Of a stretch of 64,000 bases of DNA, positions 16,016 to 62,655 are shown one piece after another. The stretch covers positions 434,001 through 498,000 of the forward strand of contig NZ_JAKJHW010000001.1 of NCBI RefSeq assembly GCF_021646685.1. Direction: 5' to 3'. The notes beneath the pieces are model-generated. The model ran no database searches. It was not told where the DNA came from and saw nothing but the letters and a program-made list of their open reading frames with translations. This stretch comes from Pseudalkalibacillus salsuginis. GTDB taxonomy: Bacteria > Bacillota > Bacilli > Bacillales > Fictibacillaceae. A program made the position numbers and the translations under genes. Within the stretch, counting starts at the first letter, position 1, and every line of letters starts with the position of its first letter.

Positions 16016-16053
16016 AGAACAGCCCTGGCACCGTGCCCAGGGCTGTTCTTTTC
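16016..16053. terminator. Terminator between dsdA and the sigK 3' half
   Basis: Perfect 13-base stem AGAACAGCCCTGG/CCAGGGCTGTTCT with TTCTTTTC following. It can serve dsdA and sigK. Confidence 0.92.
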
Positions 16054-16433
16054 TAGCCTTTTTCTTTGTCATTTCTCTGTCTGTAGAATTCATGGAACAA
16101 TTTCATCAGGGCTCGTTTTTCGATCCGAGAGACATAGCTTCTTGAGATTCCCAGGTCTTTTGCAATCTCTCGTTGGGTCCGTTCTTTTTCCATATCGAGT
16201 CCAAAGCGCCCGACGATGACTTCTTTTTCACGCTCATCGAGAATATGGATATGTTCGTAGATCTGCTTCTTTTCCATCTTTAACTGAATCGTATCTACAA
16301 TGTCATCGAGATCGGCTTTCAGGACATCGATAAGGGTGATTTCATTCCCCTCTTTATCTGTTCCGATCGGGTCCTGTAAGGAAACATCCTTCTTCGTTTT
16401 TTTGATTGCCCGCAAATGCATGAGAATTTCCAT
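16053..16433 (-). CDS. spoIIIC: SigK C-terminal half (SpoIIIC-like), separated from its N-terminal half
   Basis: The frame matches residues after about 113 of sigma-[21 protein letters not shown], then region 4 with [15 protein letters not shown] and the helix-turn-helix [20 protein letters not shown]. There is no ribosome site before the nominal ATG at 16433. The sequence homologous to SigK begins at ATT (16427), exactly at the recombination site. The N-half is on the opposite strand at 27412. Joined to it, this part supplies 124 residues of a 237-residue sigma factor. In the present orientation it is silent. Confidence 0.93.
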
Positions 16434-16447
16434 TCTAATGTCATTAC
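16411..16447 (-). other. Left recombination site (sigK C-half side): B-arm plus P-arm
   Basis: Read on the minus strand, the site is the 16-base arm GTAATGACATTAGAAT (16447-16432), then GGAA, then ATTCTCATGCATTTGCGG, which is sigK coding sequence. The P-arm lies inside the segment and the sigK arm outside it. The GA of GGAA (16430-16429) matches the GA at 27748-27749 in the right site and is the likely crossover dinucleotide. Confidence 0.8.
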
Positions 16448-16475
16448 TATAGCGAAATCTTCATGAAATTAACCC

Positions 16476-17870
16476 TTATAAATTGAAATATCTTTTTGTA
16501 TTATTATATGAGATATCCTCAACATACCTTCCTAATAGTGATATGTCTGGGGGAATGGTGCCATTTTCCACCCACTTTCCAAATAAATTGCAGAGAACCC
16601 TTCGAAAATATTCATGTCTAGAAAAAGATAGAAAAGAGCGGGAATCAGTTAACATACCGATAAAATGTTTAATCAGTCCAACATTGGATAGGATGCTCAT
16701 TTGATTTTTCATTCCATCAATATGGTCGTTATACCACCATGCTGTCCCAAATTGCACTTTACCTGGAATACTAGAATCCTGAAAATTCCCAGCTATTGTC
16801 GCCAAGATATAATTATCACGCGGATTCAAACAATAAAGGATGGTTTTTGGCAGTCTATTCTTTATTTCTAAAGAATCTAGAAACTTAGAGAGAGGATCAG
16901 CTAATAATTGATCTCCAATAGAATCAAAACCACTATCCGGACCGATTTGCTTATACATTTTGGTGTTATTATTACGTAGAGGTCCAAGATGAAATTGCAT
17001 CGCCCAGTTCATTTCATAGTATTTTTCCGCGAGAAACTGTAAGGTATACGTTTTAAATTGATGTACCTCTTTTTCGGTAAGAACGCATCCTCTACGACTT
17101 TTTTCATAAATATCAGATACTTCTTTTTCTGAACCCTCTTCATAAAACATTACATTTATCCCATGATCGGAGGCTCGACATCCATGGTCATTAAAATATT
17201 CTATTCTCATAGAAAGAGCCCCTAAGAAACTATGGAATTTATCTACATTGATCCCTGTGACTTCCTCTAATTTAATTAACCAATCATTGAAAGCTTCTGA
17301 TTGTATATCCAAGGCATTATCTGGTCGAAAAGAGGGGGCGACCATAATCGGAAAATCAGATTTTTTAATAGAGGCATGAAATGAGAGATCATCAGTAGGA
17401 TCATCCGTTGTACCGACGAATTCAACCTTGCTTTTTATAAGCAGATTTTGTGCATGCATACTTTCATCTTTTAGTCTCTCATTAGCAGTGTCCCATATCC
17501 TTCTTGCACTTTCTTCATTTAATAGTTCATCTATTTCAAAGTAACGAAGTAATTCCATATGGGTCCAATGATATAACGGATTCCCGATAGTGTTGGGGAC
17601 AGTTTGTGCCCACTTCATAAACTTTTCTTTAGCCGGAGCTTCTCCAGTAATGTATTTTTCTTCAATGCCATTAGCTCGTAAAAGCCTCCATTTGTAATGG
17701 TCACCTTCCAACCAAATTTCTGAAATGTTTTTAAATCTTCTATTACTATTAATTTCACTAGGAGGAAGGTGGTTGTGATAATCTATAATTGGTAGGTCTT
17801 TTGCATATTGATGATATAATTCTCTGGCATAATCATTACTTAAAAGAAAGTCCTCGTTTATAAATGTCAT
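16476..17870 (-). CDS. uxaC: Glucuronate (uronate) isomerase UxaC
   Basis: This 464-residue enzyme interconverts D-glucuronate/D-fructuronate and galacturonate/tagaturonate. It shows the DYHNHLPPSEI metal-binding start (about residue 30), the VEFVGTTDDPTDDL core and the C-terminal LTDSRSFLSFSRHEYFRR segment of the family. It is the last gene of the minus-strand operon dctP-dctQ-dctM-GH31-uxaC, and its stop is about 45 bases from the recombination site. The later uronate pathway genes (uxuA, uxuB, kdgK) are not in the window. Confidence 0.93.
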   Translation of the reverse strand: MTFINEDFLLSNDYARELYHQYAKDLPIIDYHNHLPPSEINSNRRFKNISEIWLEGDHYKWRLLRANGIEEKYITGEAPAKEKFMKWAQTVPNTIGNPLYHWTHMELLRYFEIDELLNEESARRIWDTANERLKDESMHAQNLLIKSKVEFVGTTDDPTDDLSFHASIKKSDFPIMVAPSFRPDNALDIQSEAFNDWLIKLEEVTGINVDKFHSFLGALSMRIEYFNDHGCRASDHGINVMFYEEGSEKEVSDIYEKSRRGCVLTEKEVHQFKTYTLQFLAEKYYEMNWAMQFHLGPLRNNNTKMYKQIGPDSGFDSIGDQLLADPLSKFLDSLEIKNRLPKTILYCLNPRDNYILATIAGNFQDSSIPGKVQFGTAWWYNDHIDGMKNQMSILSNVGLIKHFIGMLTDSRSFLSFSRHEYFRRVLCNLFGKWVENGTIPPDISLLGRYVEDISYNNTKRYFNL

Positions 17871-17896
17871 TTGTTAGTCCCGCCTTTCTAATAAAA

Positions 17897-20284
17897 CTAA
17901 ATTTGCAATCGATAGTACTTGTTTTTTCCTATATCGTTATGGTTAATAATGATTGTTCGATTCTCAGTCTCTGGGAAATATAGATTTATAAATTTATATG
18001 GTAGTTGGTAATCACCGTTAATACTGATGTTTATTCCTACAACTTTCTTCATCGACTCAATTTCTACAATGATCCAGGAGTTGATGCCCTTTTTGTAATC
18101 TAAAGAAACTCCATCATCCTCATAAATTTTCTTAATGCTCTTACCTTCTTTTGGTGGTGGATAAATTAATAACCCTTGCTCTTCATCTTTTTTATTGTTA
18201 AAAGTGATTTTTCCATCACGAATAGGCAGCACTGCTCCAGCCTGAGCAAATTTTGGAATTACATTAAGAGGTGCATCTACCTGTATCGTATTCCCGCCTT
18301 CATACCATATACCTGTGTCTATGTCATACCATCCATGCAGATTTTCCGGCAGGTAAACATCTCTTTTTCTTTGCCCCCGCTCCATGACTGATGCAATCAA
18401 CAAATCCTCACCAACCATGAAATCATCATTTTCCTCAAAAGTATTTTTATCATCCTGAAAATGATAGAACGTTGGAGTCAAAATTGGTTGGTGATACGTA
18501 TGTGCTTTGTACAATAAGTGATATAAGTAAGGGATCCATTTAACCCTTTCTTTCATCAAACTCCCAATTGTATCCCTATACTCTGGATACATCCATGGAA
18601 CATTCACTGTTTTATCTTCATTCCAAGAATGAATGGTAAAACGAGGATGAAATATCCCGTTTTGAATCCACCTGATAAACAATTCAGGTTCAGGTGCTTT
18701 TCCTGCAAAACCACCTATATCATGCCCAAAATTATAAATGCCTGAAATACTTAGACTTAAACCCATTTTCAAATTGTATCTAATGGTTTTCCATTCTGTA
18801 TAATTATCACCAGACCAAGTTTGAACATATCGATGCATACCAGGTCCACCCGATCGGGATATAGAATAGGGACGCAATTTAGGTTGATGTTCTTGCTGCG
18901 CTTCGAAAGAAGCCTTCATCATTAACAAAGTTTGTATCGGTTTTAGGTATTGGACTGATAATTTATTACCAAAATTGTGAACCCAGGCTTGCTCATCCCA
19001 AATTTCATATTCGTTATTATCATTCCAAGTTGCGTCTATCCCATAGTGAAGCAATGTCTCTTTAATTTGCTTTTTCCACCATTTAATTGTTTCTATATTG
19101 GTGAAATCCAGATATGAACCTAATGCATCCCAGAATTGAGAAAGCTCAGGAGAATTTCCATACTTATTTTTTACAAACAATCCTTTTTTACTAAGCCAGT
19201 CATACTGGGGATGGTCATCTAATAAACAAGGCTTAATATTTGCACAGACATTGATTCCATTTATATGGAAATAATCATTCATTTGTTTCGGATCTGGAAT
19301 TTTAGAATGGTTCCAGTTGAATACATATCGTTTGTCACCAATCGAAGTATAACCTGATGAAAGCTGAAATGAATCACAGGGAATATCATTATTACGACAT
19401 TCATCAACAAATTTCTTTAATTGCTTCTGGGCATCGGGAGCATCAGTATAGGTCATTGTTGAACCTGAAAAACCTAAACTCCACTTCGGAGGGAAAGCTG
19501 TTTTTCCAGTCATCCAAGTATAACTTTGGACAACCTCTTTTATACGTGGTCCAAGAATGAAATAATAATCTAAATCTCCCTTTTTTACTTGGAAATAACG
19601 ATACAACCCATGGTAATTATCAAGCTCTGCCCCCATATCAAACACACTATCTGAATAGTTATCATAGAAGATCCCATAAGAAATTGATAAATCAGGCTTA
19701 TACACCAGGTAAAAAGGAATATGCTTATACAATGGATCTGTTGTTTCTGCATCATATCCCATTGCATCAATGGTTCTCATTTGATAGCGTTTGTGATGAC
19801 GATTCATTAACCCACTTTTTTCACCTAAACCGTAATATTTTTCATTACGCTCCCGTTCCATATAGTGATAGACATAATCACCTAAGCTATGTCCAAAATT
19901 ATAGCTTTGGGTCTTTCGATCTCCAGCTATTTTCACCCAGTTTTCTCCTACTTTTGTAAGCCAATCAAGATAAAAACCTTCTAGCCAGACAACCACCTTT
20001 AAATGCTTTGTATACACTTCCACCTTGTCTTCAAGTTCTACAACCTGATATGAAGGTAAGCTGAATGGAGTAAGATCAAATCGATTTCTACCTTCGTATG
20101 GTACATCTTCCATTCCAGGTGCAACTGACCAAGTTCGCTCTAGTCTTATATCTTCATCATTAGGTATAAAAACTCGAAAAATCCCTTCTTCCAAAATATA
20201 TAGATCTACTTTTTCATTATCAGAAATGAATGTAAGATGATTCTTTTGATCACTGACTAGTTTAAAATTAGGTTTGGTAATCAA
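17897..20284 (-). CDS. Glycoside hydrolase family 31 enzyme
   Basis: This 795-residue cytoplasmic GH31 protein has the GLGEKSG segment (about residue 150), the catalytic-nucleophile region DATWNDNNEYEIWD (family consensus WNDMNEP) and the SRSGGPGMHRYVQTWSGDN segment preceding the acid/base region. The start is TTG at 20284, eight bases after GGAGG. There is no signal peptide, so it acts on an imported oligosaccharide. With a TRAP transporter upstream and glucuronate isomerase downstream, the substrate is plausibly an alpha-linked disaccharide containing a uronic acid. That is inference. Confidence 0.88.
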   Translation of the reverse strand: MITKPNFKLVSDQKNHLTFISDNEKVDLYILEEGIFRVFIPNDEDIRLERTWSVAPGMEDVPYEGRNRFDLTPFSLPSYQVVELEDKVEVYTKHLKVVVWLEGFYLDWLTKVGENWVKIAGDRKTQSYNFGHSLGDYVYHYMERERNEKYYGLGEKSGLMNRHHKRYQMRTIDAMGYDAETTDPLYKHIPFYLVYKPDLSISYGIFYDNYSDSVFDMGAELDNYHGLYRYFQVKKGDLDYYFILGPRIKEVVQSYTWMTGKTAFPPKWSLGFSGSTMTYTDAPDAQKQLKKFVDECRNNDIPCDSFQLSSGYTSIGDKRYVFNWNHSKIPDPKQMNDYFHINGINVCANIKPCLLDDHPQYDWLSKKGLFVKNKYGNSPELSQFWDALGSYLDFTNIETIKWWKKQIKETLLHYGIDATWNDNNEYEIWDEQAWVHNFGNKLSVQYLKPIQTLLMMKASFEAQQEHQPKLRPYSISRSGGPGMHRYVQTWSGDNYTEWKTIRYNLKMGLSLSISGIYNFGHDIGGFAGKAPEPELFIRWIQNGIFHPRFTIHSWNEDKTVNVPWMYPEYRDTIGSLMKERVKWIPYLYHLLYKAHTYHQPILTPTFYHFQDDKNTFEENDDFMVGEDLLIASVMERGQRKRDVYLPENLHGWYDIDTGIWYEGGNTIQVDAPLNVIPKFAQAGAVLPIRDGKITFNNKKDEEQGLLIYPPPKEGKSIKKIYEDDGVSLDYKKGINSWIIVEIESMKKVVGINISINGDYQLPYKFINLYFPETENRTIIINHNDIGKNKYYRLQI

Positions 20285-20301
20285 TACAATAGCCTCCCTC
20301 G

Positions 20302-21606
20302 TTACAATAGACCCATCAATCGTGGAATAGCCAAACTAATGGATGGAATGAATGTGACCAGCAATAAAGCCACAATCAGGGCTGCGAAGATTTTCGTAAG
20401 TGGACGTAGCACTGATTCAATTGAAACATCAGCTACGCTACACCCTACAAATAAACAGCTGCCTACAGGTGGAGTCATAATACCTATACATAAGTTGAAT
20501 ACAAGCACGATTCCGAAATGAACAGGATCCATTCCTATTTCTGTAGCAATTGGCAAGAAAATTGGCGTGAAAATAAGAACCGCAGGTGTTAGATCCATAA
20601 ATGTTCCAATGATTAATAGTATTAGATTCATAATCAATAAAATAATAATCGGGTTATCTGATGAAGCCAACAATAACTCACTAATCGCACTTGGAATCCC
20701 AGTAAAAGCCATTACCCAAGACATAATGGAAGAAGCTCCTACTAAAAAGAGTACGATCCCGGTCATAACAACGGATTCCTTTAAAATCTGTGGAATATCT
20801 GTCAACTTGATTTCACGATAGATGGCTGAGAGTATGATGGAATATAAAACAGCCACAGCAGCACCTTCAGTAGCGGTAAAGATCCCACCCACAATTCCTC
20901 CAATAACGACAACAATCATTAAAAGACTTGGAATGGCATCTAATACAATTTTAATTCCTGTATTTAATGAAGGGCGTTCAGCTACTGGGTATTTTTGTTT
21001 TTTAGCCAGAATAAATGCGATACTCATGACCGCTAACCCCATAAGAATTCCTGGAAGATAACCTGCCATGAATAATGCAGAAATTGATGTACCTCCACTC
21101 ACAAGTGAATATAGAATCAAAGCACCACTGGGAGGAATCAATAACCCTGCAGGTGATGAAGCGATATTTACAGCAGCAGAATAGGATTTATCATAACCTT
21201 CTTTCGCTTGAAGAGGTGTCATGACTTTACCGATAGCGGCCGCTGCGGCTACTGCTGAACCAGAAATCGAACCGAATAACATATTACCAACAACATTTGT
21301 ATGGGCTAGAGAACCAGGTAAACGTCCCCCTACCAGCTTAGCAAGATTGATCAATCTTATGGCTATACCACCATTATTCATAATACTTCCAGAAAGGATA
21401 AAGAAAATAACTGCAAGCAAGGTAAAGCTATTAATACCCTGTACCATTTTCTGCGCTGCAGTAAATATGGCAATATCCATAGGAACAATGGTCAATGCTG
21501 TAACAAAAGAAGCAACTCCAATACCTACTGAAATCGGGACACCAAGTACTAATAATAAAAAGAAGACCCCAAATAGGATTAAAGCGGCTTGGAAAGAAAT
21601 ATCCAT
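20302..21606 (-). CDS. dctM: TRAP transporter large permease DctM
   Basis: This 434-residue, roughly 12-helix permease of the DctM/TRAP-L family has PSGALILYSLVSGGTSISALFMAGYLPG-type sequence and a C-terminal TPPVGSCLFVGCSVADV segment. It carries Na+-driven uptake together with DctQ and DctP. Its start lies one base after the dctQ stop, so the two are coupled. Confidence 0.93.
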   Translation of the reverse strand: MDISFQAALILFGVFFLLLVLGVPISVGIGVASFVTALTIVPMDIAIFTAAQKMVQGINSFTLLAVIFFILSGSIMNNGGIAIRLINLAKLVGGRLPGSLAHTNVVGNMLFGSISGSAVAAAAAIGKVMTPLQAKEGYDKSYSAAVNIASSPAGLLIPPSGALILYSLVSGGTSISALFMAGYLPGILMGLAVMSIAFILAKKQKYPVAERPSLNTGIKIVLDAIPSLLMIVVVIGGIVGGIFTATEGAAVAVLYSIILSAIYREIKLTDIPQILKESVVMTGIVLFLVGASSIMSWVMAFTGIPSAISELLLASSDNPIIILLIMNLILLIIGTFMDLTPAVLIFTPIFLPIATEIGMDPVHFGIVLVFNLCIGIMTPPVGSCLFVGCSVADVSIESVLRPLTKIFAALIVALLLVTFIPSISLAIPRLMGLL

Positions 21607-21607
21607 T

Positions 21608-22096
21608 TTAATTTTCCTCCCTAAACGGCATTTTTCCCCTATACTCTGAAAGTAGCAGTAGTTTATAAATAATGATTATAACCCCACTAATCGGAAGTAT
21701 GGAATATACAATACCCATCGGAATGCTTAAAATTGGAGTTTTTTGGAGCATAGTGGTTCCTACCAATTCCATTCCGCCTCGAATCATGATGAGATAAGCA
21801 AATACGAATATGACTAGGTCATTAATGATTCTGATTGCTAGTTTATTTTTTCCTTTTAACTTATCCTTAAGGAATGTAATCGCCAGGTGCTGATTGGAGC
21901 CAAACGCATAACTTGCTCCAAGGATGGATGTCCATATTAGCAAAAAACGGAGCAGCTCCTCAGTGAATGTACTAGGTGTATTTAATAAATACCGGCTAGC
22001 AACTTGCCAAATAGCTCCTAGAAATAACACTAAGGAAAAGAATCCAGTGATAAAAAGAATGAACCGATCCAAGATAAGTTTGATTTTTATGACCAC
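21608..22096 (-). CDS. dctQ: TRAP transporter small permease DctQ
   Basis: This 162-residue four-helix small permease has the family segments VASRYLLNTPSTFTEELLRF and WTSILGASYAFGSNQHLAI. A GTG start at 22096 has GGAG upstream. An ATG overlapping it runs out of frame within three codons. It lies between dctP and dctM. Confidence 0.9.
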   Translation of the reverse strand: MVIKIKLILDRFILFITGFFSLVLFLGAIWQVASRYLLNTPSTFTEELLRFLLIWTSILGASYAFGSNQHLAITFLKDKLKGKNKLAIRIINDLVIFVFAYLIMIRGGMELVGTTMLQKTPILSIPMGIVYSILPISGVIIIIYKLLLLSEYRGKMPFREEN

Positions 22097-22213
22097 ATTT
22101 TTTCTCCTTTCACTTCCTAAAAAAGATCCTTTAATACCTTTTATAGTTACCTTTCATTTGTATTAATTCTCTATCTCAACATACATAAAATCCCATTATT
22201 TCCAATAAACAGG

Positions 22214-22242
22214 AGAAGGTACTCCTATAATGAGCACCTTCT
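22214..22242. terminator. Intercistronic hairpin between dctP and dctQ
   Basis: Inverted repeat AGAAGGTACTC/GAGCACCTTCT without a good T-run. Such hairpins often stabilise the upstream message or partly terminate, giving more binding protein than permease. This role is inferred. Confidence 0.5.
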
Positions 22243-22249
22243 ATATTAA

Positions 22250-23242
22250 TCATTTCATCTCTTTAATTTTCTCCATAATCCCGGTTAAGTCCTTATTCTT
22301 CATAAATTCTTCATGTAGTGGTTTAACCGCTTCAATGAATGGCTCTTTATCAACCTTATGGAATTCCACTCCCATATTCTTTGCTTCACTTACAGCTTCA
22401 TTTGTTGCTTCTTCCCAAAGCTTTGTATGATATTTTGTTGCCTCATGTGCTGCATCTTCAAAGGCGGTTTTTTGATCATCAGATAAGTTATCCCAAGTAT
22501 TTTGATTTATAACTACAATATCTGGAATGATTGTGTGCTCATTAAAAGAGAAATCCTTAGCCACTTCCCCGTGTTTGCCGGTGGTAAGTGCAGTTGGATT
22601 ACTTTCAGCCCCGTCTATAACTCCTTGTTGTAGACCGGTATAAATTTCACCATATGGCATTGGGGTCGGTGTACCACCTAGCAATTTAACCATTTCGATA
22701 GCTGTAGGACTGTCCATTACACGAATTTTCATACCCTTTAGATCTTCCGGAGATTTTATCGGAGTATTCTTGGTATAAAAACTTCTAGCGCCTGAATCAA
22801 AGTAGGTCAACCCTATAAATCCCTTATCACTAGTGGATTGATAGATATCTTTTGTAATATTTGACTCCATCACTTTTCTGTAATGGGACTCACTTTCAAA
22901 AATATACGGTAATGAGAAGACTTTATATTCGTCAGAAAAGCTTTCTAAAGCTCCTGCACTAACCTTTGTCATGTCAACTGAACCATTTTGCAATTGCTCA
23001 AGTACTTCCTTTTCATCTCCCAAAACACCATTAGCGAAAATCTTAATGGTGATTTCACCATTTGTTTTTTCCTCTACATTTTTAGCGAACCTTTCCAATC
23101 CCTTATGTACAGGATGGTCTTCGCCAAGGTTGTGAGCTAAACGTAATTCTTTATCATCACCCGTCTGTGACCCCGAATTCCCGCAAGCCATCAAGAATAA
23201 TAAGCTTACTATTACCATTGTCATCGATAACCATTTTTTCAT
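22250..23242 (-). CDS. dctP: TRAP transporter solute-binding lipoprotein DctP
   Basis: This extracytoplasmic binding protein of about 330 residues has a lipoprotein signal peptide (lipobox LMAC near residue 20). The DctP signature is PYGEIYTGLQQGVIDGAE, and the carboxylate-binding arginine lies in GMKIRVM. I prefer the ATG at 23242. The ATG at 23251 directly abuts the GAGGGGA ribosome site. Family knowledge: members bind C4-dicarboxylates, sialic acid or uronic acids. With uxaC in the operon, a uronate or uronate-containing sugar is likely. Confidence 0.92.
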   Translation of the reverse strand: MKKWLSMTMVIVSLLFLMACGNSGSQTGDDKELRLAHNLGEDHPVHKGLERFAKNVEEKTNGEITIKIFANGVLGDEKEVLEQLQNGSVDMTKVSAGALESFSDEYKVFSLPYIFESESHYRKVMESNITKDIYQSTSDKGFIGLTYFDSGARSFYTKNTPIKSPEDLKGMKIRVMDSPTAIEMVKLLGGTPTPMPYGEIYTGLQQGVIDGAESNPTALTTGKHGEVAKDFSFNEHTIIPDIVVINQNTWDNLSDDQKTAFEDAAHEATKYHTKLWEEATNEAVSEAKNMGVEFHKVDKEPFIEAVKPLHEEFMKNKDLTGIMEKIKEMK

Positions 23243-23286
23243 TACTTCCATTCCCCTCTCATATGAATGTATGCGCTTCCAAGAAA

Positions 23287-23311
23287 CTTTGTTTGTCTAG
23301 ACAACAAACTA
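23287..23311. promoter_or_regulatory. XylR-like operator in the dctP/ROK divergent region
   Basis: A perfect 12-base palindrome TTGTCTAGACAA (23293-23304) sits in a longer GTTTGT...ACAACAAACTA context. This resembles the operator of the xylose repressor XylR, a ROK protein. It lies between the dctP start and the ROK gene, so it could control both. Confidence 0.65.
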
Positions 23312-23327
23312 TTGGTATTATAGTAAA

Positions 23328-23341
23328 TGAAACCGCTTTAA
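23328..23341. promoter_or_regulatory. Candidate catabolite-responsive element (cre)
   Basis: TGAAACCGCTTTAA fits the CcpA site consensus with a mismatch at the final CA. Position beside the operator fits carbon catabolite control of a sugar operon. Confidence 0.4.
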
Positions 23342-23372
23342 TTTTCAAGTGTTATTTGAAAGGAGATATTAG

Positions 23373-24557
23373 ATGACTACAGGTGATGCTACCTATATAA
23401 AGGCTTTAAACCGCAGAATTTTAATTGAAAAAATTATTAAACACCGTTCGATTTCTAGAAGTGACCTTGCCCGCATGACAGGATTAAACAAATCTACTGT
23501 ATCAGCCCAAGTTCAACAGATGATGAGAGAAAATTTAATTATTGAAAAACAGTCGGATGTTTCAAGTGGAGGCCGAAAGCCAATTCTTCTTGAAATTAGT
23601 GGAGAGAGTGGTTATGCCATAGGAGTTGATATAGATGAAAGTTTAATACAGATACAAGTCACTAATCTTTCAGGGAGCTCTATTTATACACAACGGGTAA
23701 ACCACAAAAGTGATAATCCTGAAGATATCATAAGGCTAGTTACATCTGCATTAACAAGTGTTATTACTATTTTTGATAACAGACACACGCCAATTGGACT
23801 TATTGGAATAGGGATAGGGATTCATGGAATTGTAGCTAACAATGATAAAATAATTTATACACCAAAAATGCACTTAGCTAAGCTTCCAATCAAGCTTGAA
23901 TTGGAAAATAAATTTAATGTTCCTGTTTTCATTGACAATAATTCTAATCTTTGTGCATATGCAGAGCAGGTGTATACATCATCAATATCCGATTTATTTT
24001 GTATTACAATGTACTCTGGAATAGGATTAGGAATTATTCATAATAGTAAAATATATCGTGGATTTCATGGATTTGCTGGGGAAATAGGTCATATGACCAT
24101 AGAGCGGAACGGAAGATCATGTACATGTGGCAATGAAGGCTGCTGGGAATTATATGCTTCCGAAAAAGCTTTATTGAAGGAACTTAAAGCACAGGGGTTG
24201 GATCTTTATGAAATTGAAGACGTAAAAATCGATGATATTTTTAACCGTTATCCAAAATTAATGGGAGATTTTCTTGATAATGTTGCCATTGGCTTGAATA
24301 ATATAATTAACATCTTTAACCCAGAAACGGTTATTCTAAATGGTTCTATACTTAATAATAATGAAAGTTTAATTGACCAGGTCAAAGCACGCTTAACCTC
24401 ACGAATTAACAACTATGACAAAATTCTTTCTTCAAAACTTGGTAAGAGCGCATGTTCCCTTGGTGGAGCTATGGTTGCTTTAAAAAATTATTATGGTGTT
24501 CAAAACCTTGACTTTACAGCATACAATTATTATTCTGAAAAACAACTGGCAAAATAA
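23373..24557 (+). CDS. ROK-family transcriptional repressor (XylR-like)
   Basis: This 394-residue protein has an N-terminal winged helix-turn-helix (ISRSDLARMTGLNKSTVSAQ, about residue 28). A ROK sugar-kinase-like domain follows, with the zinc motif GEIGHMT...CTCGNEGCWE. It is divergent from the TRAP/GH31/uxaC operon with a XylR-like operator between them, so it is probably the local sugar-responsive repressor. The inducer is unknown but likely the imported sugar or its product. Confidence 0.9.
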   Translation: MTTGDATYIKALNRRILIEKIIKHRSISRSDLARMTGLNKSTVSAQVQQMMRENLIIEKQSDVSSGGRKPILLEISGESGYAIGVDIDESLIQIQVTNLSGSSIYTQRVNHKSDNPEDIIRLVTSALTSVITIFDNRHTPIGLIGIGIGIHGIVANNDKIIYTPKMHLAKLPIKLELENKFNVPVFIDNNSNLCAYAEQVYTSSISDLFCITMYSGIGLGIIHNSKIYRGFHGFAGEIGHMTIERNGRSCTCGNEGCWELYASEKALLKELKAQGLDLYEIEDVKIDDIFNRYPKLMGDFLDNVAIGLNNIINIFNPETVILNGSILNNNESLIDQVKARLTSRINNYDKILSSKLGKSACSLGGAMVALKNYYGVQNLDFTAYNYYSEKQLAK

Positions 24558-24570
24558 TTCTCTTAACAAC

Positions 24571-24688
24571 GGAGCTGTCCCAAAACAATAGTGTCAGACA
24601 CCACCACACAACATTTTGTTTCAAAAACACACTTTTTCTCAAAATGTTGCTAGGGACGGTGAGAGTCAGACACTAATGGGACAGCCCC
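24571..24688. repeat. Long imperfect hairpin (GGGCTGTCCC family), copy 1
   Basis: GGAGCTGTCCC (24571-24581) and GGGACAGCCCC (24678-24688) pair. Inner blocks AGTGTCAGAC and GTCAGACACT pair imperfectly. It follows the ROK gene and may act as its terminator. A related hairpin is at 61277-61378. Confidence 0.7.
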
Positions 24689-24749
24689 GTCATTCTATTT
24701 GACATAGAAAAAAACAGGAATGTCAAGGATTTATCGTCAAACCTTTACA

Positions 24750-24835
24750 TGAACCATCTTCTCCATCTCTTTCAGTCAAGCTGCAATTCCTTCTGGGGCA
24801 TTCACCAAATTGCAACATGGAAATATCCAAGGTTG
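24750..24835 (-). pseudogene. Fragment of a second spoIVCA-like recombinase gene
   Basis: The sequence resembles recombinase coding sequence at about 25695-25765. Shared blocks read, on the plus strand, TCTCCATC, TTTCAGTC, GCTGCAAT, TTCTGGGG and ATTCA in the same order. On the minus strand it translates to NAPEGIAA, a stop, then LKEMEK. The intact gene has NTPEEIAAATERDGEK. The fragment is broken by the stop and has no start. Confidence 0.65.
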
Positions 24836-25004
24836 CCTGTTCGTTGTTTAAATTTCATTCAGGTCGATAATATATGTTATACTTACATTAATAAAAGCAG
24901 GAATATTTATGTATGTCACTTTAAATTATTTTGTTTTTCAGGGTATATTTGGTTATAATATAATTAGAAAATGCATAATCTAAAAACCAGCTATAGTATA
25001 ATTG

Positions 25005-25103
25005 GCTGGGCGGAACAACCGTATAGACCGTTAGAGGACGGTCAAGACTCAGTGAAAGTAATCCACACAGGCTTGCCGGCAGGGTGGATTACTTTTTTCG
25101 TTC
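25005..25103 (+). ncRNA. Candidate antitoxin antisense RNA (RatA/SR4-like)
   Basis: A TATAAT at 24997-25002 precedes a sequence with CCGTTAGAGGACGGTC. It ends in a strong terminator hairpin AGTAATCCAC/GTGGATTACT followed by T6. The 3' end overlaps the end of the minus-strand toxin frame, which is the arrangement of txpA/RatA-type modules. The RNA is predicted, not observed. The remaining 24836-24996 stretch shows no supported gene. Confidence 0.6.
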
Positions 25104-25178
25104 AATTAAAGTAATCACCAGTGTTATCAGCAGAATCATAAACGTAGCTGTAGCTAGGTCAAAATTACTGTGATTCAC
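25089..25178 (-). CDS. Candidate type I toxin, short hydrophobic peptide (29 aa)
   Basis: The product reads VNHSNFDLATATFMILLITL followed by VITLIERKK: one membrane helix and a charged, lysine-rich end, like holin-like/TxpA-BsrG family toxins. The GTG at 25178 lies eight bases after a GGAAAGGGGG ribosome site. Two GTGs closer to that site are poorer choices. The mRNA 3' end would overlap the convergent antisense RNA. The skin element of B. subtilis carries such modules, which fits a role in element maintenance. Confidence 0.6.
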   Translation of the reverse strand: MNHSNFDLATATFMILLITLVITLIERKK

Positions 25179-25323
25179 GGCCACCACCCCCTTTCCTAGG
25201 GGATAACTGACCGTCCACCCTGCCTATACGATTGCTCCTATAAACATTATACACAAAAAATAGGTAAATAAATACAAGTCTTATTTTGGATTGGAAAAGT
25301 GATGTTTTCTCGAAATATGTTAG

Positions 25324-26832
25324 TTAGTATGTGTAAATATTCATACGGTCTTCGTATACCCTAATCTCTTTTACAACATGCCGGATAAGTGATTTTTTAT
25401 CTTCAAATGTTAAGTCATTCTGTCCTTTTGAGAAATAGAATTCAACAGCTTCTTGCAGTAACTTTTTTCCGTATATGTGCTGTTCCTTATTTCCCCTTGC
25501 TTTCTCCAGTTCTTTTAAATCCTTCGAAAGACGTTCTTCTTTGTCCTTCAACTCCTTTAAAGTCTCTCTGATTTCTTCTTCAGAAACATCCAATCCATCT
25601 GAGAATAAATTCAATAATTTTTTTCTACCGACTTTTACTTTGTTGATTTCTGAATGAAGCCTTTCACTTTCGATTTCATCAAAGTCCAGTGTTTCCTTTT
25701 CTCCATCCCTTTCAGTCGCAGCTGCAATCTCTTCTGGGGTATTCAACCATTTTAGAATCGTTTCCCAAACTTCTCCATCCAGCTTTGAAACGTTGATTCT
25801 GCGGCCACATCCTGGATGTTTTGCCCCGGCATAGTTTTTATAATCTGTATAGATATAGACGGTTTCCCCCCAGTTCGTTGTTTTGACTCCTACCATTGTA
25901 TTATTGCAGTCTCCACAACGGATCAATCCACTTAACAAATAGTCATGTTTCGCTTTTTTTGCCCAACGTCTTCTTGACTGTTCAAGTATTGATTGCGCAT
26001 GTTCGAATGTTTCAGCATCAATGATTGCTGGACATTCAATTGGAATCCATTCCTCTTTCGGACGCTTTCTCATTGGAACCCGCTCTTCTTTGGACTTATA
26101 CTTATTGCCAAGCATCCCCTCTGTGTTCCATCGGTTCTGATAAAACTCTCCCATATATACCCGATTCATCAGTAACTGGCGTACAACTTGGCGATGCCAT
26201 ACTTTCGCACCTCGTTTAGTAGGTATCCCTTTATTAGTTAAGTACTTGGCTATTCCATTAATTCCTTCGACATGGTGATTCGGCCTAGTAAACAGGTCAA
26301 AAATCAGCTTAACCACATTAGCTTCCTCTTCGTTTATAATGATTTGGGAGGTTTCTTTATCATAGTCATAACCGTAAATCTGGAAGTTTCTTAGGACTTT
26401 GCCCTGCCTTGCTTTTTCACGTCGTCCTCTGCTCATCCTCTCATTAATCTTTGCTTTTTCAAACTCAGCGATCGCACCACGCATACTATAGAAAAGATTT
26501 CCTTCTGGAGTCTTGGTATACTCACTCGTCACAAAAACGAGTTCTACGCCGCGTTTTTCAATTTCATCTGTAATAATCAATTGATTCATCAGCTTCCGAG
26601 AAAGCCGGTCAGGGTCTAAACATATTACTTTAGTAATCAGATCTTCACGAACGTCATTCCTCAATTTAGTCAATGCATGACGATCTAAAAATTCACCGGA
26701 CATTCCCCTATCCACATATTCAATCACTTCATCAGAATTTGCTTTCTTCCGGCATTCCTTTAGCTGATCCTCCAGGCTGAATCCCTTCTTCGCTTGCTCC
26801 TCTGTGCTCACCCTTGCATATATCGCAATCAT
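25324..26832 (-). CDS. spoIVCA: SpoIVCA-like large serine recombinase (sigK rearrangement)
   Basis: This 502-residue serine recombinase has the N-terminal resolvase domain with the catalytic serine in YARVSTEEQ and the arginine region DPDRLSRKLMNQL. The recombinase domain (NGIAKYLTNKGIPTKRG) and a zinc ribbon (CGDC...CGRR) follow, then a coiled coil and C-terminal tail. It closely resembles SpoIVCA of B. subtilis from recall (RVSTEEQ, TPEGNLFYSMRGAI, EFYQNRWNTEGMLGNKY). The ATG at 26832 has GGAG seven bases upstream and gives the family start MIAIY. An in-frame ATG 30 codons upstream is less likely. It is divergent from the N-half of sigK. Confidence 0.93.
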   Translation of the reverse strand: MIAIYARVSTEEQAKKGFSLEDQLKECRKKANSDEVIEYVDRGMSGEFLDRHALTKLRNDVREDLITKVICLDPDRLSRKLMNQLIITDEIEKRGVELVFVTSEYTKTPEGNLFYSMRGAIAEFEKAKINERMSRGRREKARQGKVLRNFQIYGYDYDKETSQIIINEEEANVVKLIFDLFTRPNHHVEGINGIAKYLTNKGIPTKRGAKVWHRQVVRQLLMNRVYMGEFYQNRWNTEGMLGNKYKSKEERVPMRKRPKEEWIPIECPAIIDAETFEHAQSILEQSRRRWAKKAKHDYLLSGLIRCGDCNNTMVGVKTTNWGETVYIYTDYKNYAGAKHPGCGRRINVSKLDGEVWETILKWLNTPEEIAAATERDGEKETLDFDEIESERLHSEINKVKVGRKKLLNLFSDGLDVSEEEIRETLKELKDKEERLSKDLKELEKARGNKEQHIYGKKLLQEAVEFYFSKGQNDLTFEDKKSLIRHVVKEIRVYEDRMNIYTY

Positions 26833-27000
26833 TGAGTTTCTCCTTTCTATATTTTTCCTTGAGATAAGAGTAGCAAGAATACCGAATCCGGTCAGTAGAA
26901 CTTCCTTCAATAATTTCGACATGCACCTCGCATCACCTCTTTAAAAGGTATGCAGGTACAGCTTGCCTGCTTTCTTGAATGAATTTACTCAGAGCAATAA

Positions 27001-27190
27001 AAAAAAGTGTCAACGCCCTGATCAGCCACGAAGGTTACTGGAAGTCCGACGAGGAGGCTCGAACCAAACAAAGTTCGGTTCTGCGTGGGCAAACACTTCG
27101 AACTAAATCAATGTGTCGACCGCCGCAGGAGGACTGAAGTGATCCAAGTGGTTGGGGGTTGAGCTAGACATCACTTCATCGAAACAAAAT
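27001..27190 (+). repeat. Interspersed hairpin repeat, copy 2 (long form)
   Basis: This copy carries an extra central insert with the inverted pair GAACC/GGTTC around AAACAAA and a GGGCAAACAC...TGTGTC pair. The short copies lack this insert. The tail ATCACTTCATCG is conserved. It lies between the recombinase and the N-half of sigK. The rest of 26833-27411 holds their promoter regions, without a motif I can assign safely. Confidence 0.85.
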
Positions 27191-27411
27191 TTTATACTTT
27201 CTAACTATTTTTACTCGTTTTACCTTTCTAGGTGTGGATCCAAGGTAACCAGAATATTAGAACTTCCGTCAATCCTTATAATTCCCTATTCATTCATCCA
27301 TTATTTTCATGGATAAATGCTTGACGTTATTCTTTTAATTGTACAGACACACCCAAGCCCAACTATACATAGGATTAAATATGTGTGATAGCAGCCTATG
27401 GAGGTGAGGGT

Positions 27412-27816
27412 GTGTCAAGCATCATCGCAGCACTGGCTTATTTCTTCAAAGAAGTCATGTTTTTCGTTTCTTATGTGAAGAATAATGCGTTCCCACAGCC
27501 ATTGTCGCCGAAAGAAGAAACAAAATATCTAAAGGAGATGGCTGAAGGTAGTGAAGACGCCCGGAATCGCTTGATCGAACATAACTTGAGACTCGTCGCA
27601 CATATATGTAAAAAATTCGAGAATACAGGGGAGGATACAGAAGATCTGATCTCCATCGGTACGATCGGCCTGATCAAGGCGATCGAGAGTTACTCAAGAG
27701 GGAAAGGGACGAAGCTTGCAACCTATGCAGCGAGGTGTATAGAAAATGAGATTCTAATGTCATTACCAGCCCATGTAAAAAACGACACTAAGACTGTATT
27801 TCTTGGGATATTATAA
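27412..27816 (+). CDS. spoIVCB: Pro-SigK N-terminal half (SpoIVCB-like), separated from its C-terminal half
   Basis: Residues 1-113 match pro-sigma-K. A hydrophobic pro-sequence runs to about [16 protein letters not shown], the usual processing point. Region 2 follows ([53 protein letters not shown]). Homology stops at 27750. The frame then reads about 21 unrelated codons to a stop. The GTG at 27412 is seven bases after GGAGG. The C-half lies on the minus strand at 16053. Alone this part would give a truncated protein lacking the -35 recognition region. Confidence 0.93.
27738..27766 (+). other. Right recombination site (sigK N-half side): B-arm plus P-arm
   Basis: The site reads sigK sequence GTATAGAAAAT, GA (27748-27749), G, then the 16-base arm ATTCTAATGTCATTAC (27751-27766). 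Here the sigK arm lies inside the segment and the P-arm outside, the opposite of the left site. That makes the two sites inverted with respect to recombination. Confidence 0.8.
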
Positions 27817-28035
27817 AGAATTATTATATTACATTTTTGAGAGGGATCCAAGTTCCTTTCTTCTTTATTGAGTTATTTGGTTAAAAGGTGTGCTTCTGTT
27901 CGAGCCTCATCAACCTATCCTTCCCACATTGCAGGATAAATTTTGCCGATGGGACTATCTTATACAGTTCATTTATTTCTGAATAGAAAATGATAAATAA
28001 AAAATACTATAAAAAATGTGTTAGGTGGTGATATG

Positions 28036-28365
28036 ATGAAAAAACTGATCAATATCAAAATGGTAATTGTACTCTTACTATTGTCGTTTAGTCTATCCAA
28101 TGTCGGTTATGGTCAGCAACCAGACTATGCTCAATGGGGAAAAACGGCATTACAGGAAACAATGAAAAAGTATCCAAACTACAAGGTCATTAATTATGAG
28201 TATGATGGAAAAGTAATCATTTCTGAGGAGAGGACCCAATACAATTTCGAGTTCATTCTAAAACAGAATGCGAAAGAGAGAGAAGTAAATGTATATGTAT
28301 TGGTTAACCCGAAAAACAACCAATTAATAAATATCCACTTTGATGAAATTCAGGATTTGAGTTAA
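28036..28365 (+). CDS. Secreted DUF3889 (YqzG/YhdC-like) protein
   Basis: This 109-residue protein has a signal peptide (about residues 1-28). Its mature region (AQWGKTALQETMKKYPNYKV, then EVNVYVLVNPKNNQLINI) follows the pattern of the DUF3889 family. Of three possible starts I chose the ATG at 28036, seven bases after AGGTGG. Function is unknown in the family. It has its own terminator. Confidence 0.65.
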   Translation: MKKLINIKMVIVLLLLSFSLSNVGYGQQPDYAQWGKTALQETMKKYPNYKVINYEYDGKVIISEERTQYNFEFILKQNAKEREVNVYVLVNPKNNQLINIHFDEIQDLS

Positions 28366-28403
28366 CGCTATATTACAAAATGAATACGATAGTGAAACCA
28401 TTT

Positions 28404-28446
28404 AAGAACCTGCATGAAGATCGAAAAGTTCGTACAGGTTCTTTCT
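28404..28446 (+). terminator. Terminator of the DUF3889 gene
   Basis: Stem AAGAACCTG/CAGGTTCTT with a 22-base apex, followed by TCTC. Confidence 0.7.
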
Positions 28447-28514
28447 CATGTATCAGGATCTATTAAGATCCGAGTTTAATTCATTGAAACCAAACTTGGA
28501 TTTTATTACTTAAA

Positions 28515-28541
28515 AGCAAGCGGTGGCGACCCCCGCTTGCT
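28515..28541 (-). terminator. Terminator of the first YrzI-like gene
   Basis: Stem AGCAAGCGG/CCGCTTGCT with T-residues on the minus strand, immediately after the stop codon. Confidence 0.75.
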
Positions 28542-28547
28542 CCTTTG

Positions 28548-28697
28548 TTACATCATATTCATATATTGAGCTGATTTATCATGGGCTGCATCCATTAAAG
28601 ACTGAACGCGTGCATTGTGTTCAATTATATTTGAATCAGTTTCATTACTCCGCACTTTCTTGATGATCGTTAAAATGAATAATTGAAATGGCATCAT
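28548..28697 (-). CDS. YrzI-like small protein, copy 1
   Basis: This 49-residue protein starts MMPFQLFILTIIKK, is amphipathic in the middle and ends SAQYMNMM. This is the pattern of the Bac_small_YrzI family (short hydrophobic N-terminus ending in a TI-KK turn, helical acidic/basic middle, terminal Tyr/Met). GGAGGG lies seven bases before the ATG. A paralogue follows at 28810. Family function is unknown. Family members have been linked to sporulation by annotation only. Confidence 0.7.
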   Translation of the reverse strand: MMPFQLFILTIIKKVRSNETDSNIIEHNARVQSLMDAAHDKSAQYMNMM

Positions 28698-28809
28698 ACC
28701 GTATCCCTCCTGTCATCTTCGATTTCCTTTCAGGTCGTATCTTTCTCCGTAATTATCCAATCAAGAAAAACCTTTCCTCTTATCATTGTTTTCAACCTCC
28801 CATATATTT

Positions 28810-28959
28810 TTACATCATGGAAATGTAATAGAATGCTTTTTCCCTAGCTTGGTCATACAAGTCTTCTGCTTGCTTTTGTTTATTGTAATCTTCATATGTC
28901 ATTTTTGATTTCAATGTTTTCTTTAAAATCGTCAATAAAAATAAATGTACTGGCATCAT
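28810..28959 (-). CDS. YrzI-like small protein, copy 2
   Basis: This 49-residue paralogue has exactly the same length as copy 1. It starts MMPVHLFLLTILKK, contains TYEDYNKQKQAEDLYDQARE and ends YYISMM. GGAGGG precedes the ATG at the same spacing. The identical length, start and ending but diverged middle indicate an old tandem duplication. Confidence 0.7.
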   Translation of the reverse strand: MMPVHLFLLTILKKTLKSKMTYEDYNKQKQAEDLYDQAREKAFYYISMM

Positions 28960-29080
28960 AGCGGATCCCTCCTTTCTATGAGTGCTTTCAGTTTCGGGAA
29001 CTACCTCTCTTTAGCCAATATTTTTTCCCTGATGTCTCAACCCACATTCTGTCTGCCTCCTTTCATCTGATCCCATTAAA

Positions 29081-29114
29081 AAACGCCACAGGATTAACCC
29101 CCTGTGGCGTTTTT
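29081..29114. terminator. Bidirectional terminator upstream of the YrzI pair
   Basis: Stem AAACGCCACAGG/CCTGTGGCGTTT with A- and T-runs. A second, related hairpin with the same CCTGTGGCGTTTTT half follows at 29158-29190. Confidence 0.8.
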
Positions 29115-29157
29115 AGGCACATCCAGACATATTCATACGTCTAAAAGGCATAGGAAA

Positions 29158-29190
29158 GCCACAGGCAGTCGTCGACCTGTGGCGTTTTTA
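29158..29190 (+). terminator. Second CCTGTGGC hairpin
   Basis: Stem GCCACAGG/CCTGTGGC with a ten-base loop and GTTTTT on the plus strand. The shared half with the preceding hairpin suggests local duplication. Confidence 0.6.
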
Positions 29191-29213
29191 ACGTGTTTTA
29201 ATAACGGTTAAAA

Positions 29214-29294
29214 TTACGCTTGTTTCCCCGGTCGAACGTTTAAACTATTCAATTGAGCTGAATTGCCTTTTCCAATTGTGAATGCGATCATCAT
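29214..29294 (-). CDS. Small peptide (26 aa), unknown
   Basis: An ATG with AGGAGG nine bases upstream opens a frame starting MMIAFTIGKGNSAQLNS and ending RPGKQA. The ribosome site is very good and the frame starts with MM, like the YrzI pair. It has no recognisable domain and could be a chance frame. Confidence 0.35.
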   Translation of the reverse strand: MMIAFTIGKGNSAQLNSLNVRPGKQA

Positions 29295-29363
29295 GTCGCT
29301 CGACCTCCTTTGGTAAATTTAACCTTCGGATTAAATTATAATCAAATAAGTATGAAAAGTAAA

Positions 29364-30044
29364 CTAATTTTCAGAAAAAATGTTGCTTTTTCTTAGAAAT
29401 GGGTTTTTCCATTCCATCAATACCCCAAAATCAGCTGATTCCGGATCTTCAAGGTAATTGGGAAGAAGCTTTATCGGAGAACGCCCAGCCTTCATTAAAA
29501 AGGAAACAACCGGATCGTCATGTTCACCAGTAATGATTCCATCTATGTAGTTTTGCGGGCTCATTATATGTTTAACCTTTTTATAACCAGGCATTCGGCT
29601 CCCACCTAAAACTGCTTCAAGCTGCAAGTGTACAACAAGCTGATAAATGGATTGCATGAGCAATTTTCCGATACCCGACTTCCGGTATTTAGGGCGGACG
29701 CTAATATCCACCACATACAATACATTTCCATTAGGATCATGGGTGCCGATCGATCCGTTATCCGTAACTTCTTCCCACGTGTGATCTTCCCCATGATTGT
29801 TCACGATTAGGGTAGTAATTGACCCAGCCAGCTCACCGTCCACTTCTGCACAGATCGCTCCATCGGAAAAAATTTGCACGTGGTTAACTAATTGGCTTTT
29901 CTTCCACCATAGGTCAGATGGAAACGGAGGAGGAAAACATTCTTTTTGAATATCGATAAGCTGATCGAAGTCAGATTCATTATAGTTCCGGATCGTCGTT
30001 TTAAATGGTTTACCGTCCTGGAACAGATACTGCGAAAATAGCAT
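29364..30044 (-). CDS. GNAT-family N-acetyltransferase
   Basis: This 226-residue protein has the GNAT core: DQLIDIQKECFPP at the N-terminus, VVDISVRPKYRKSGIGKLLM as the acetyl-CoA-binding motif A (R/Q-x-x-G-x-G/A form RKSGIG) and a GGSRMPGY segment. AAAGGAG precedes the ATG. The substrate is unknown. It is monocistronic. Confidence 0.85.
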   Translation of the reverse strand: MLFSQYLFQDGKPFKTTIRNYNESDFDQLIDIQKECFPPPFPSDLWWKKSQLVNHVQIFSDGAICAEVDGELAGSITTLIVNNHGEDHTWEEVTDNGSIGTHDPNGNVLYVVDISVRPKYRKSGIGKLLMQSIYQLVVHLQLEAVLGGSRMPGYKKVKHIMSPQNYIDGIITGEHDDPVVSFLMKAGRSPIKLLPNYLEDPESADFGVLMEWKNPFLRKSNIFSEN

Positions 30045-30140
30045 ATCGTTTAGGATCTCCTTTATATGTATTCATTCACTTATTAGCTTTTCTCAGGGGA
30101 AATCCTGCTTGTTTTCGAAAAATACTTATAAAGTCGAGAA

Positions 30141-62450: not shown

Positions 62451-62469
62451 TTCAGTGATTGAACTTACA

Positions 62470-62655
62470 AGAGTCCCATATGTGCCGTCGAAATCCTTCT
62501 GTGTTGAACCTGCCTGAAAAGGTGGGTGTCCTGTTACAATCCTTATGCGTCCTTTCACCGAAGGCTTGCACGCAAAATCATAAACTCAGACTCCCATTTA
62601 TAAAGTGTTGGCTCAAACGTTCGGCAGAAACGTACACCCCAGGACTCTTTGATAT
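62470..62655 (-). ncRNA. Candidate 6S RNA (bsrA/6S-1 type)
   Basis: On the minus strand the stretch starts AAAGAGTCCTGGGGTGT and ends ACACAGAAGGATTTC. These ends pair (GTCCT with AGGAT, GTGT with ACAC) to close a long irregular rod of about 180 nt. No reading frame fills it, and B. subtilis bsrA lies, to my recollection, between yrvM and aspS. A TACAAT lies just upstream of the proposed 5' end. The 62656-62820 remainder shows no gene. Confidence 0.6.

Follow-up and report, generated by a model that had tools for sequence, protein, structure and literature searches.

Opposed sigK halves in Pseudalkalibacillus salsuginis and their probable restoration by DNA inversion

In Bacillus subtilis, sigK is cut at an AATGA-repeat site into halves of the same orientation, and the 48-kb prophage-like element between them, skin, leaves as a circle. 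The accessible sections of the reports on this system (SpoIVCA, Skr) describe a large serine recombinase and, as its recombination directionality factor (RDF), a 64-aa open reading frame (ORF) whose end overlaps the spoIVCA start by 101 nt in a different frame (PMC6957869, PMC10745906). Clostridioides difficile also has a split sigK with a serine integrase (CD1231) and an RDF (CD1234), and its natural element, skinCd, is excised; in Escherichia coli, CD1231 inverted plasmid DNA between attP and attB sites that had been opposed by assay design, and recombination of attL with attR needed CD1234, according to the portion of that study available (PMC5025042). The gin element of Bacillus cereus ATCC 10987 (GirC, GirX), a non-phage element in the sporulation regulator gene gerE with an integrase and an RDF, is excised as well, as far as its available description goes (PMC5595907). 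The natural cases described in the available parts of these and related reports are excision or phage integration in sigK (PMC5025042, PMC10745906, PMC6957869, PMC5595907, PMC13141910), and we found neither naturally opposed sigK halves nor a gene-restoring developmental inversion in a literature search that did not extend to bioRxiv preprints or to the majority of subscription papers. Here, we analyze a stretch of 64,000 nucleotides from Pseudalkalibacillus salsuginis (NCBI RefSeq assembly GCF_021646685.1, contig NZ_JAKJHW010000001.1, positions 434,001 to 498,000; hereafter, the window) in which the two halves of sigK are opposed. We interpret this locus as a rearrangement of the skin type that has become a nonexcisable developmental inversion, and we put at roughly 80% the probability that it is a skin-type site-specific recombination unit with inverted half-sites, the gene being restored by a flip in the mother cell.

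Facing halves of sigK and their attachment sites

The sigK gene of the window is split in two, and its halves lie on opposite strands, facing each other across approximately 11.3 kb (Table 1). The frame of the N-terminal half (N-half) starts with GTG at 27412, stays open through the junction dinucleotide GA at 27748-27749, and then continues in foreign sequence as far as a stop codon whose last base is 27816. The ORF of the C-terminal half (C-half) spans 16053-16433 on the minus strand, and it begins ATGGAAATTCTC. Against the SigK profile TIGR02846, the N and C parts gave E values of 7e-57 and 3e-51, respectively, both better than against SigE or other sigma factors, and neither the halves nor the neighboring integrase contain stops or frameshifts. 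In silico inversion of 16430-27748 produced a single ORF of 237 aa (16053-16766, minus strand), and the crossover codon of this predicted pro-sigma-K is GAA, identical to the codon in five intact congeners. A preliminary description of the locus had placed the N-half on the plus strand and the C-half on the minus strand with a recombinase adjoining the N-half, all of which the ORFs, profile scores, and domain searches confirm; its invertible segment (16430-27749) and its 237-residue product are correct to within one base. It had also regarded a second intact sigK elsewhere as incompatible with inversion. None was found in the 19 contigs of the organism's own genome (4.29 Mb), where the next match after the two halves was only 50% identical and is taken to be sigE.

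Both broken ends carry serine-integrase half-sites, the attL and attR of one integrase. The 16-nt plus-strand repeat ATTCTAATGTCATTAC occurs exactly at each (16432-16447 and 27751-27766), and no third match appears in the window when up to two mismatches are allowed (shuffled sequences gave a mean of 0.07 matches, and two matches in 0 of 100). Seventeen of the 20 bases beside the GA dinucleotides match in register, a level reached by 0 of 200,000 random position pairs. In the direction of the sigK reading frame, the sequence reads GAAAAT.GA.GATTCTAATGTCATTAC at the N end and GTAATGACATTAGAATG.GA.AATTCTCATGCA at the C end, so the 16-nt repeats make up both arms of a single attP. With the crossover placed within GA (minus strand, 16430/16429; plus strand, 27748/27749), the flip of 16430-27748 would yield attB (...GAAAATGAAATTCTCATGCA...) and attP (...GTAATGACATTAGAATGGAGATTCTAATGTCATTAC...), the latter being palindromic, with dyad symmetry about GA at 15 of 16 positions. 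Because GA is not self-complementary, the sites are polar, and because their polarity is opposed, they should only invert. The polar GA center is common to attL and attR both here and in the second opposed case, from Caenibacillus, described below.

Two other readings of the broken ends were discarded. Excision through the direct 16-nt repeats would pair P and P' arms whose centers mismatch (TC versus GA) and would remove the N-half. Crossover within a shared ATTCT was dropped in favor of GA. The dyad center of attP is formed by GA, attL and attR of Caenibacillus have GA but not ATTCT in common, and GA also yields the GAA codon of the intact congeners; the restored protein is identical in either case. 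The own genome has one further exact copy of the 15-mer of the P arm; it lies in an aroA-like frame (named by eye), has no GA center, and is probably due to chance.

Integrase, candidate directionality factor, and promoters

The large serine integrase beside the N-half has 502 aa with Resolvase, Recombinase, and Zn-ribbon domains; the solved structure that it matches best is SPbeta YokA, and its best PHROGs match is the integrase family phrog_95. Translation likely starts at MIAIYARVS (26832), because the open frame upstream contains a stop in the congeners G003 and G004, whose frames are open from MIAIYARVS. A 64-aa ORF overlaps this start by 101 nt, its own stop counted, in another frame, and we consider it a candidate RDF; the likeness to Skr is drawn from the published size and overlap rather than from the B. 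subtilis Skr sequence itself. The ORF is recognizable by eye upstream of most integrases compared, but not in a distant group (L051-L056), and 12 copies of the ORF were aligned. Over the 30 codons that do not overlap the integrase gene, dN is 0 against both G003 and G004, with dS values of 0.33 and 0.41, respectively.

The putative promoter block in front of this ORF and the integrase gene, GAAAG..CAAGC..TA..GCATACC, is kept in the window and five relatives, and that of sigK, GTACAGACAC..CAAGCCC..CATAGG, is kept in all eight genomes of the genus. Their common layout, CAAGC-N8/9-CATA, suggests the same mother-cell regulators for both transcription units, which may be targets of sigma-E with SpoIIID; in B. 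subtilis, SpoIIID activates both genes, as stated in the accessible part of the report (PMC10745906).

Compared with described sigK-intervening elements, the window has an interrupted sigK coding sequence without a second copy, a cognate large serine recombinase that the element itself encodes, and the attL and attR of one integrase at the broken ends with an in-frame product. However, its halves and att sites are not in the direct orientation that permits excision as a circle, and its content is not prophage-like, the six larger cargo proteins (UxaC, GH31, DctM, DctQ, DctP, and ROK) being metabolic or regulatory, with small ORFs outside the scan. The locus resembles B. subtilis skin in its recombinase, the size and overlap of its 64-aa Skr-like ORF, its cut at AAT.GA, and its expected reconstitution in the mother cell, whereas its halves are opposed, its segment would invert, and it carries sugar catabolism genes. 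With skinCd it shares a split sigK, a serine integrase, and an RDF (here a candidate), and with gin it shares a nonphage element in a sporulation regulator gene, although both of those elements are excised. Hin/Gin-type switches use small serine invertases and near-identical opposed sites to exchange alternate promoters or tails. The window has a serine recombinase and sites in inverted orientation in common with them but differs in that its 502-aa enzyme is not a small invertase, its attL and attR share the center and one arm type only, an RDF candidate is present, and a coding sequence would be rebuilt.

Comparison with related genomes

The genus comparison comprised eight genomes, the window's own included, and flank collinearity was compared across six. 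Five of the eight have an intact sigK and lack such an integrase at an E value of <=1e-60. G003, assembled as a single contig, has an ordinary direct skin element of 41 kb, in which the C-half (2435618), the integrase, and the N-half (2477452) are all on the minus strand. Its integrase, 89% identical to that of the window, adjoins attR, and its att arms and Skr-like ORF are the same as those of the window. The flanks are collinear in the six genomes, with the left flank followed by sigK on the minus strand and then by the homologue of the window from 28512 onward; relative to these flanks, the window integrase has kept its orientation and the N-half is reversed.

In the sister genome G004, the sigK halves are on separate contigs, among host genes. 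Its N-half is nearly identical to that of the window (dS of 0.15) while its integrase is only 77% identical, which argues that the unit has probably moved between lineages. A complete window-type attP lies approximately 44 bp past G004's own attL of another type (L132 8810-8940, contig C85) and is followed by sequence like window 27767-27807, as predicted for the flipped state; the left side of the junction is unlike the predicted flipped window, and the genome is flagged as 5% contaminated. Contig C85 shows two integrase systems at a single sigK break, with attL of one type and attP of the window type. A second, 5'-truncated C-half is present on contig C1 (L134 1-648), where it occupies the ancestral flank next to a dsdA with a partial deletion, and the full C-half sits on C110; a strain mixture is possible.

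An integrase scan of named genomes gave 51 loci, and sigK was sought through 60 handles (40 from those loci) in 58 genomes, seven of which repeat another handle by coordinates; the counts are drawn from the matches listed. Both halves were listed for at least 33 genomes, the window and G003 included, on one contig in 27 and on separate contigs in six. Among the matches listed, two of the 27 same-contig genomes are opposed and 25 direct. When loci showing both halves were added, at least 39 genomes or loci could be scored (2 opposed and 37 direct, 10 of the direct calls resting on weak matches, namely, L018 and nine loci with C-halves 50 to 55% identical), genomes with one half not listed being left out of the score. 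A scan of viral contigs (8 loci) added no locus with both sigK halves.

Opposed halves were seen a second time in Caenibacillus caldisaponilyticus B157 (L042), a strain that belongs to another family, was assembled independently, and has been called spore forming (PMC5374238). Its N-half, on the minus strand, ends GAAAACGAGAATCTAAAGTCATTAG, its C-half, on the plus strand, begins TTGACATTAGAATGGAAATCCTCATG, and its att family is that of the window; no other sigK was among the matches listed for this genome. The segment of approximately 10 kb between the halves also carries host genes, by eye a peptidase, an ArsR-type regulator, a transporter, and an acetyltransferase, and unlike in the window, it is the C-half and not the N-half that lies inside the segment. 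The integrase is 77% identical to that of the window over residues 17-345 and 54% over 347-532. A relative from the Caenibacillus family, G453 (same places as G335), has direct halves. The preliminary description had suggested checking related genomes for an intact sigK and for the opposite orientation; the comparison returned the intact gene in five congeners, the direct arrangement in G003, separated halves in G004, and opposed halves in Caenibacillus.

Other features were observed in the survey. G150 has an integrase relative (55%) and an intact sigK, so members of the family can occur without a split gene. In several relatives, sigK is seemingly cut more than once (L027 561-20237, L032 3644-18960, L028 13152-21384, L017, and L018). 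In Shimazuella soli (L027), pieces covering residues 1-69, 64-118, and 110-145 are ordered on one strand with two serine recombinases; the breaks fall near codons 65, 113, and 145, the first agreeing with position 195 of island IV of B. cereus biovar anthracis as given in the available text (PMC10745906). The best phage match among those listed is the integrase of Alicyclobacillus phage MMB025 (PV686781.1 50917-52392; 49% identical), a phage reported as sigK integrated.

Proposed inversion and alternatives

The central proposal of the preliminary description, inversion and not excision, is supported at the level of sequence by the opposed halves, polar att sites, integrase, Skr-like ORF, codon identity, promoters, selection, and the second opposed case; that the flip occurs, with its timing, its regulators, and its restriction to the mother cell, is what we infer from them. 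During growth, sigK would stay off in the form of two separate halves. Transcription of the N-half and the skr-integrase operon in the mother cell would depend on sigma-E, probably together with SpoIIID, and the integrase with the Skr-like protein would recombine attL with attR. Because the sites are opposed, the 11.3-kb segment would flip rather than leave, joining N to C on the minus strand for pro-sigma-K and leaving the palindromic attP at the far end. The behavior of CD1231 and CD1234 likewise implies that an opposed attL/attR pair with an integrase and an RDF should invert. The forespore chromosome would retain the split form, and the switch would be inherited. No single recombination event could cure the unit, since the integrase, the Skr-like ORF, attP, and the host metabolic genes would remain in the chromosome. 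After an inversion, all of the DNA is still on a single molecule, so a flip back can happen at any time and the RDF would have to hold the ON state; as the back reaction is intramolecular, a stronger RDF dependence is predicted. We hold it probable, though with somewhat less assurance, that this is a programmed, cell-type-restricted inversion that rebuilds a sigma factor gene, arose from a phage-type excision unit, is chromosome bound with a load of host metabolic genes, and evolved on two or more occasions, namely, here and in Caenibacillus and perhaps in G004 as well.

Several observations weigh against a working inversion. The assembly contains the split state only, and a search of the own genome for gerPA (PF10676) found nothing, with a positive B. 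subtilis control. Relatives of the Skr-like ORF were sought in NCBIfam, PHROGs, and the PDB with nothing significant; its identity is drawn from position, size, and conservation, and dN/dS over the same 30 codons is 0.11, 0.17, and 0.35 against G033, G021, and G015, respectively. The Caenibacillus integrase has a single frameshift beside an A-run in an Ion PGM draft, which may or may not be a sequencing error. The junction between the integrase and the N-half holds a 206-bp multicopy repeat, the likeliest spot for a misjoin. None of the six congeners compared has a counterpart of 27770-28511, and the G004 counterparts of 27767-27807 and of 27977 onward are on different contigs, so the joins there are vouched for by this assembly and no other.

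The alternative that survives best, while unlikely, is a reversible, stochastic germline inversion (phase variation) that would give an intact sigK in some cells independently of the mother cell. Nothing would be lost in either direction, and since the integrase alone inverts attP x attB in the C. difficile system, a flip back would be expected without an RDF. In that same system, however, attL x attR needs the RDF, going by the part of the study available (PMC5025042). Moreover, the Skr-like ORF of the window lies behind a promoter block that is conserved with direct skin elements and resembles the sigK promoter, and the 19 contigs contain no intact copy.

It is distinctly unlikely that sigK is dead, a chance rearrangement having flipped one half in a lineage that no longer completes sporulation. 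The dispersed repeat between the integrase and the N-half, the missing gerPA, and the host genes that now separate the integrase from attR would fit such a history. Yet, where dS is unsaturated, dN/dS does not exceed 0.03 for either sigK half, and for the integrase it is 0.044 in the comparison with G003 (dS is saturated in many comparisons). These ratios indicate strong purifying selection on both halves and on the integrase, all of which are free of stops and frameshifts. The att arms still match over 16 nt, and a comparable arrangement exists in Caenibacillus, a reported spore former. A homologue of GerE, a sigma-K-dependent regulator, is also present in all eight genomes of the genus at 84 to 85% identity to the query (84% in the own genome).

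An assembly artifact, with the halves truly in direct orientation, is very unlikely. The assembly is a draft of 19 contigs, a repeat family lies between the integrase and the N-half, and the joins within 27770-28511 are mirrored in no congener compared. Nevertheless, when the own genome was searched with 26960-30045, all of the 49 match rows except the self match fell within 26991-27213; the 206-bp repeat is the sole multicopy sequence seen there, and 27214-30045 has no other copy. The other copies of the repeat in the own genome are 86 to 96% identical to that of the window, and none is exact. A misjoin at the repeat would leave the orientation of the N-half unchanged, because its 3' end enters the conserved right flank through single-copy sequence, and the independent assembly from another family is likewise opposed. 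Finally, a split sigma factor whose halves act in trans is scarcely credible: the P arm gives the C-half an in-frame ATG, but no ribosome-binding site is evident by eye at that ATG, which is part of the P arm and is found again in direct elements, for example, that of G003 (L067), and polar, matched att sites would be left unexplained.

The sporulation rearrangements in the reports consulted delete DNA in a terminal cell. If the predicted inversion is correct, it does the same job as excision without loss of DNA: a germline flip is no cure, and the integrase and attP stay available for a reset. It would also illustrate a route from a mobile element to a fixed developmental switch, and the contribution of the intervening element itself to sigma-K timing would become testable in a two-state, 11-kb system. 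The arrangement may have arisen by repeat-mediated inversion or by attP x attB inversion after insertion at a non-att site; that the 206-bp repeat mediated the original rearrangement is a guess.

Cargo, repeat, and flanks

Table 1. Features of the sigK locus (window coordinates)
Feature	Position	Strand	Basis
sigK C-half (regions 3-4), up to crossover dinucleotide	16053-16430	-	ORF reading, profile search
attR: P arm 16432-16447, GA 16430-16429, then sigK B' side	16405-16460	-	Repeat and junction comparison
Predicted invertible segment, 11.3 kb	16430-27748		In silico inversion
Glucuronate isomerase UxaC (cargo)	16476-17870	-	PF02614, E 2e-212
GH31 glycosidase (cargo)	17897-20284	-	PF01055
TRAP transporter DctM, DctQ, DctP (cargo)	20302-23251	-	PF06808, PF04290, PF03480
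ROK-family regulator (cargo)	23373-24557	+	PF00480
Large serine integrase, 502 aa from MIAIYARVS	25324-26832	-	Domain search
Skr-like 64-aa ORF, candidate RDF	26732-26926	-	Position, size, conservation
Putative skr-integrase promoter block (CAAGC-N8-CATACC)	26945-26980	-	Conservation
206-bp dispersed hairpin repeat between two divergent promoters	26997-27202	.	Own-genome search, folding
Putative sigK promoter block (GTACAGACAC..CAAGC-N9-CATAGG)	27341-27375	+	Conservation
sigK N-half with pro-sequence (region 2)	27412-27749	+	ORF reading, domain and profile search
attL: sigK B side, GA 27748-27749, P' arm 27751-27766	27725-27780	+	Repeat and junction comparison
DUF3889 protein, right outside the segment; right flank in G004 too	28018-28365	+	Domain search, genome comparison

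Counterparts of the cargo proteins were sought in the inserts upstream of sigK in G001, G002, G006, and G007, and none matched. In these four genomes, the stretch from sigK to the sequence corresponding to window 28512 holds different genes, by eye mostly metabolic, and resembles an insertion hot spot. The 206-bp repeat can fold into a long hairpin (z of -1.9 against shuffles) and has dozens of copies in the own genome and G004 at 82 to 96% identity; against Rfam, no family reached the gathering threshold. Elsewhere in the window, a 6S RNA is located at 62469-62648 on the minus strand.

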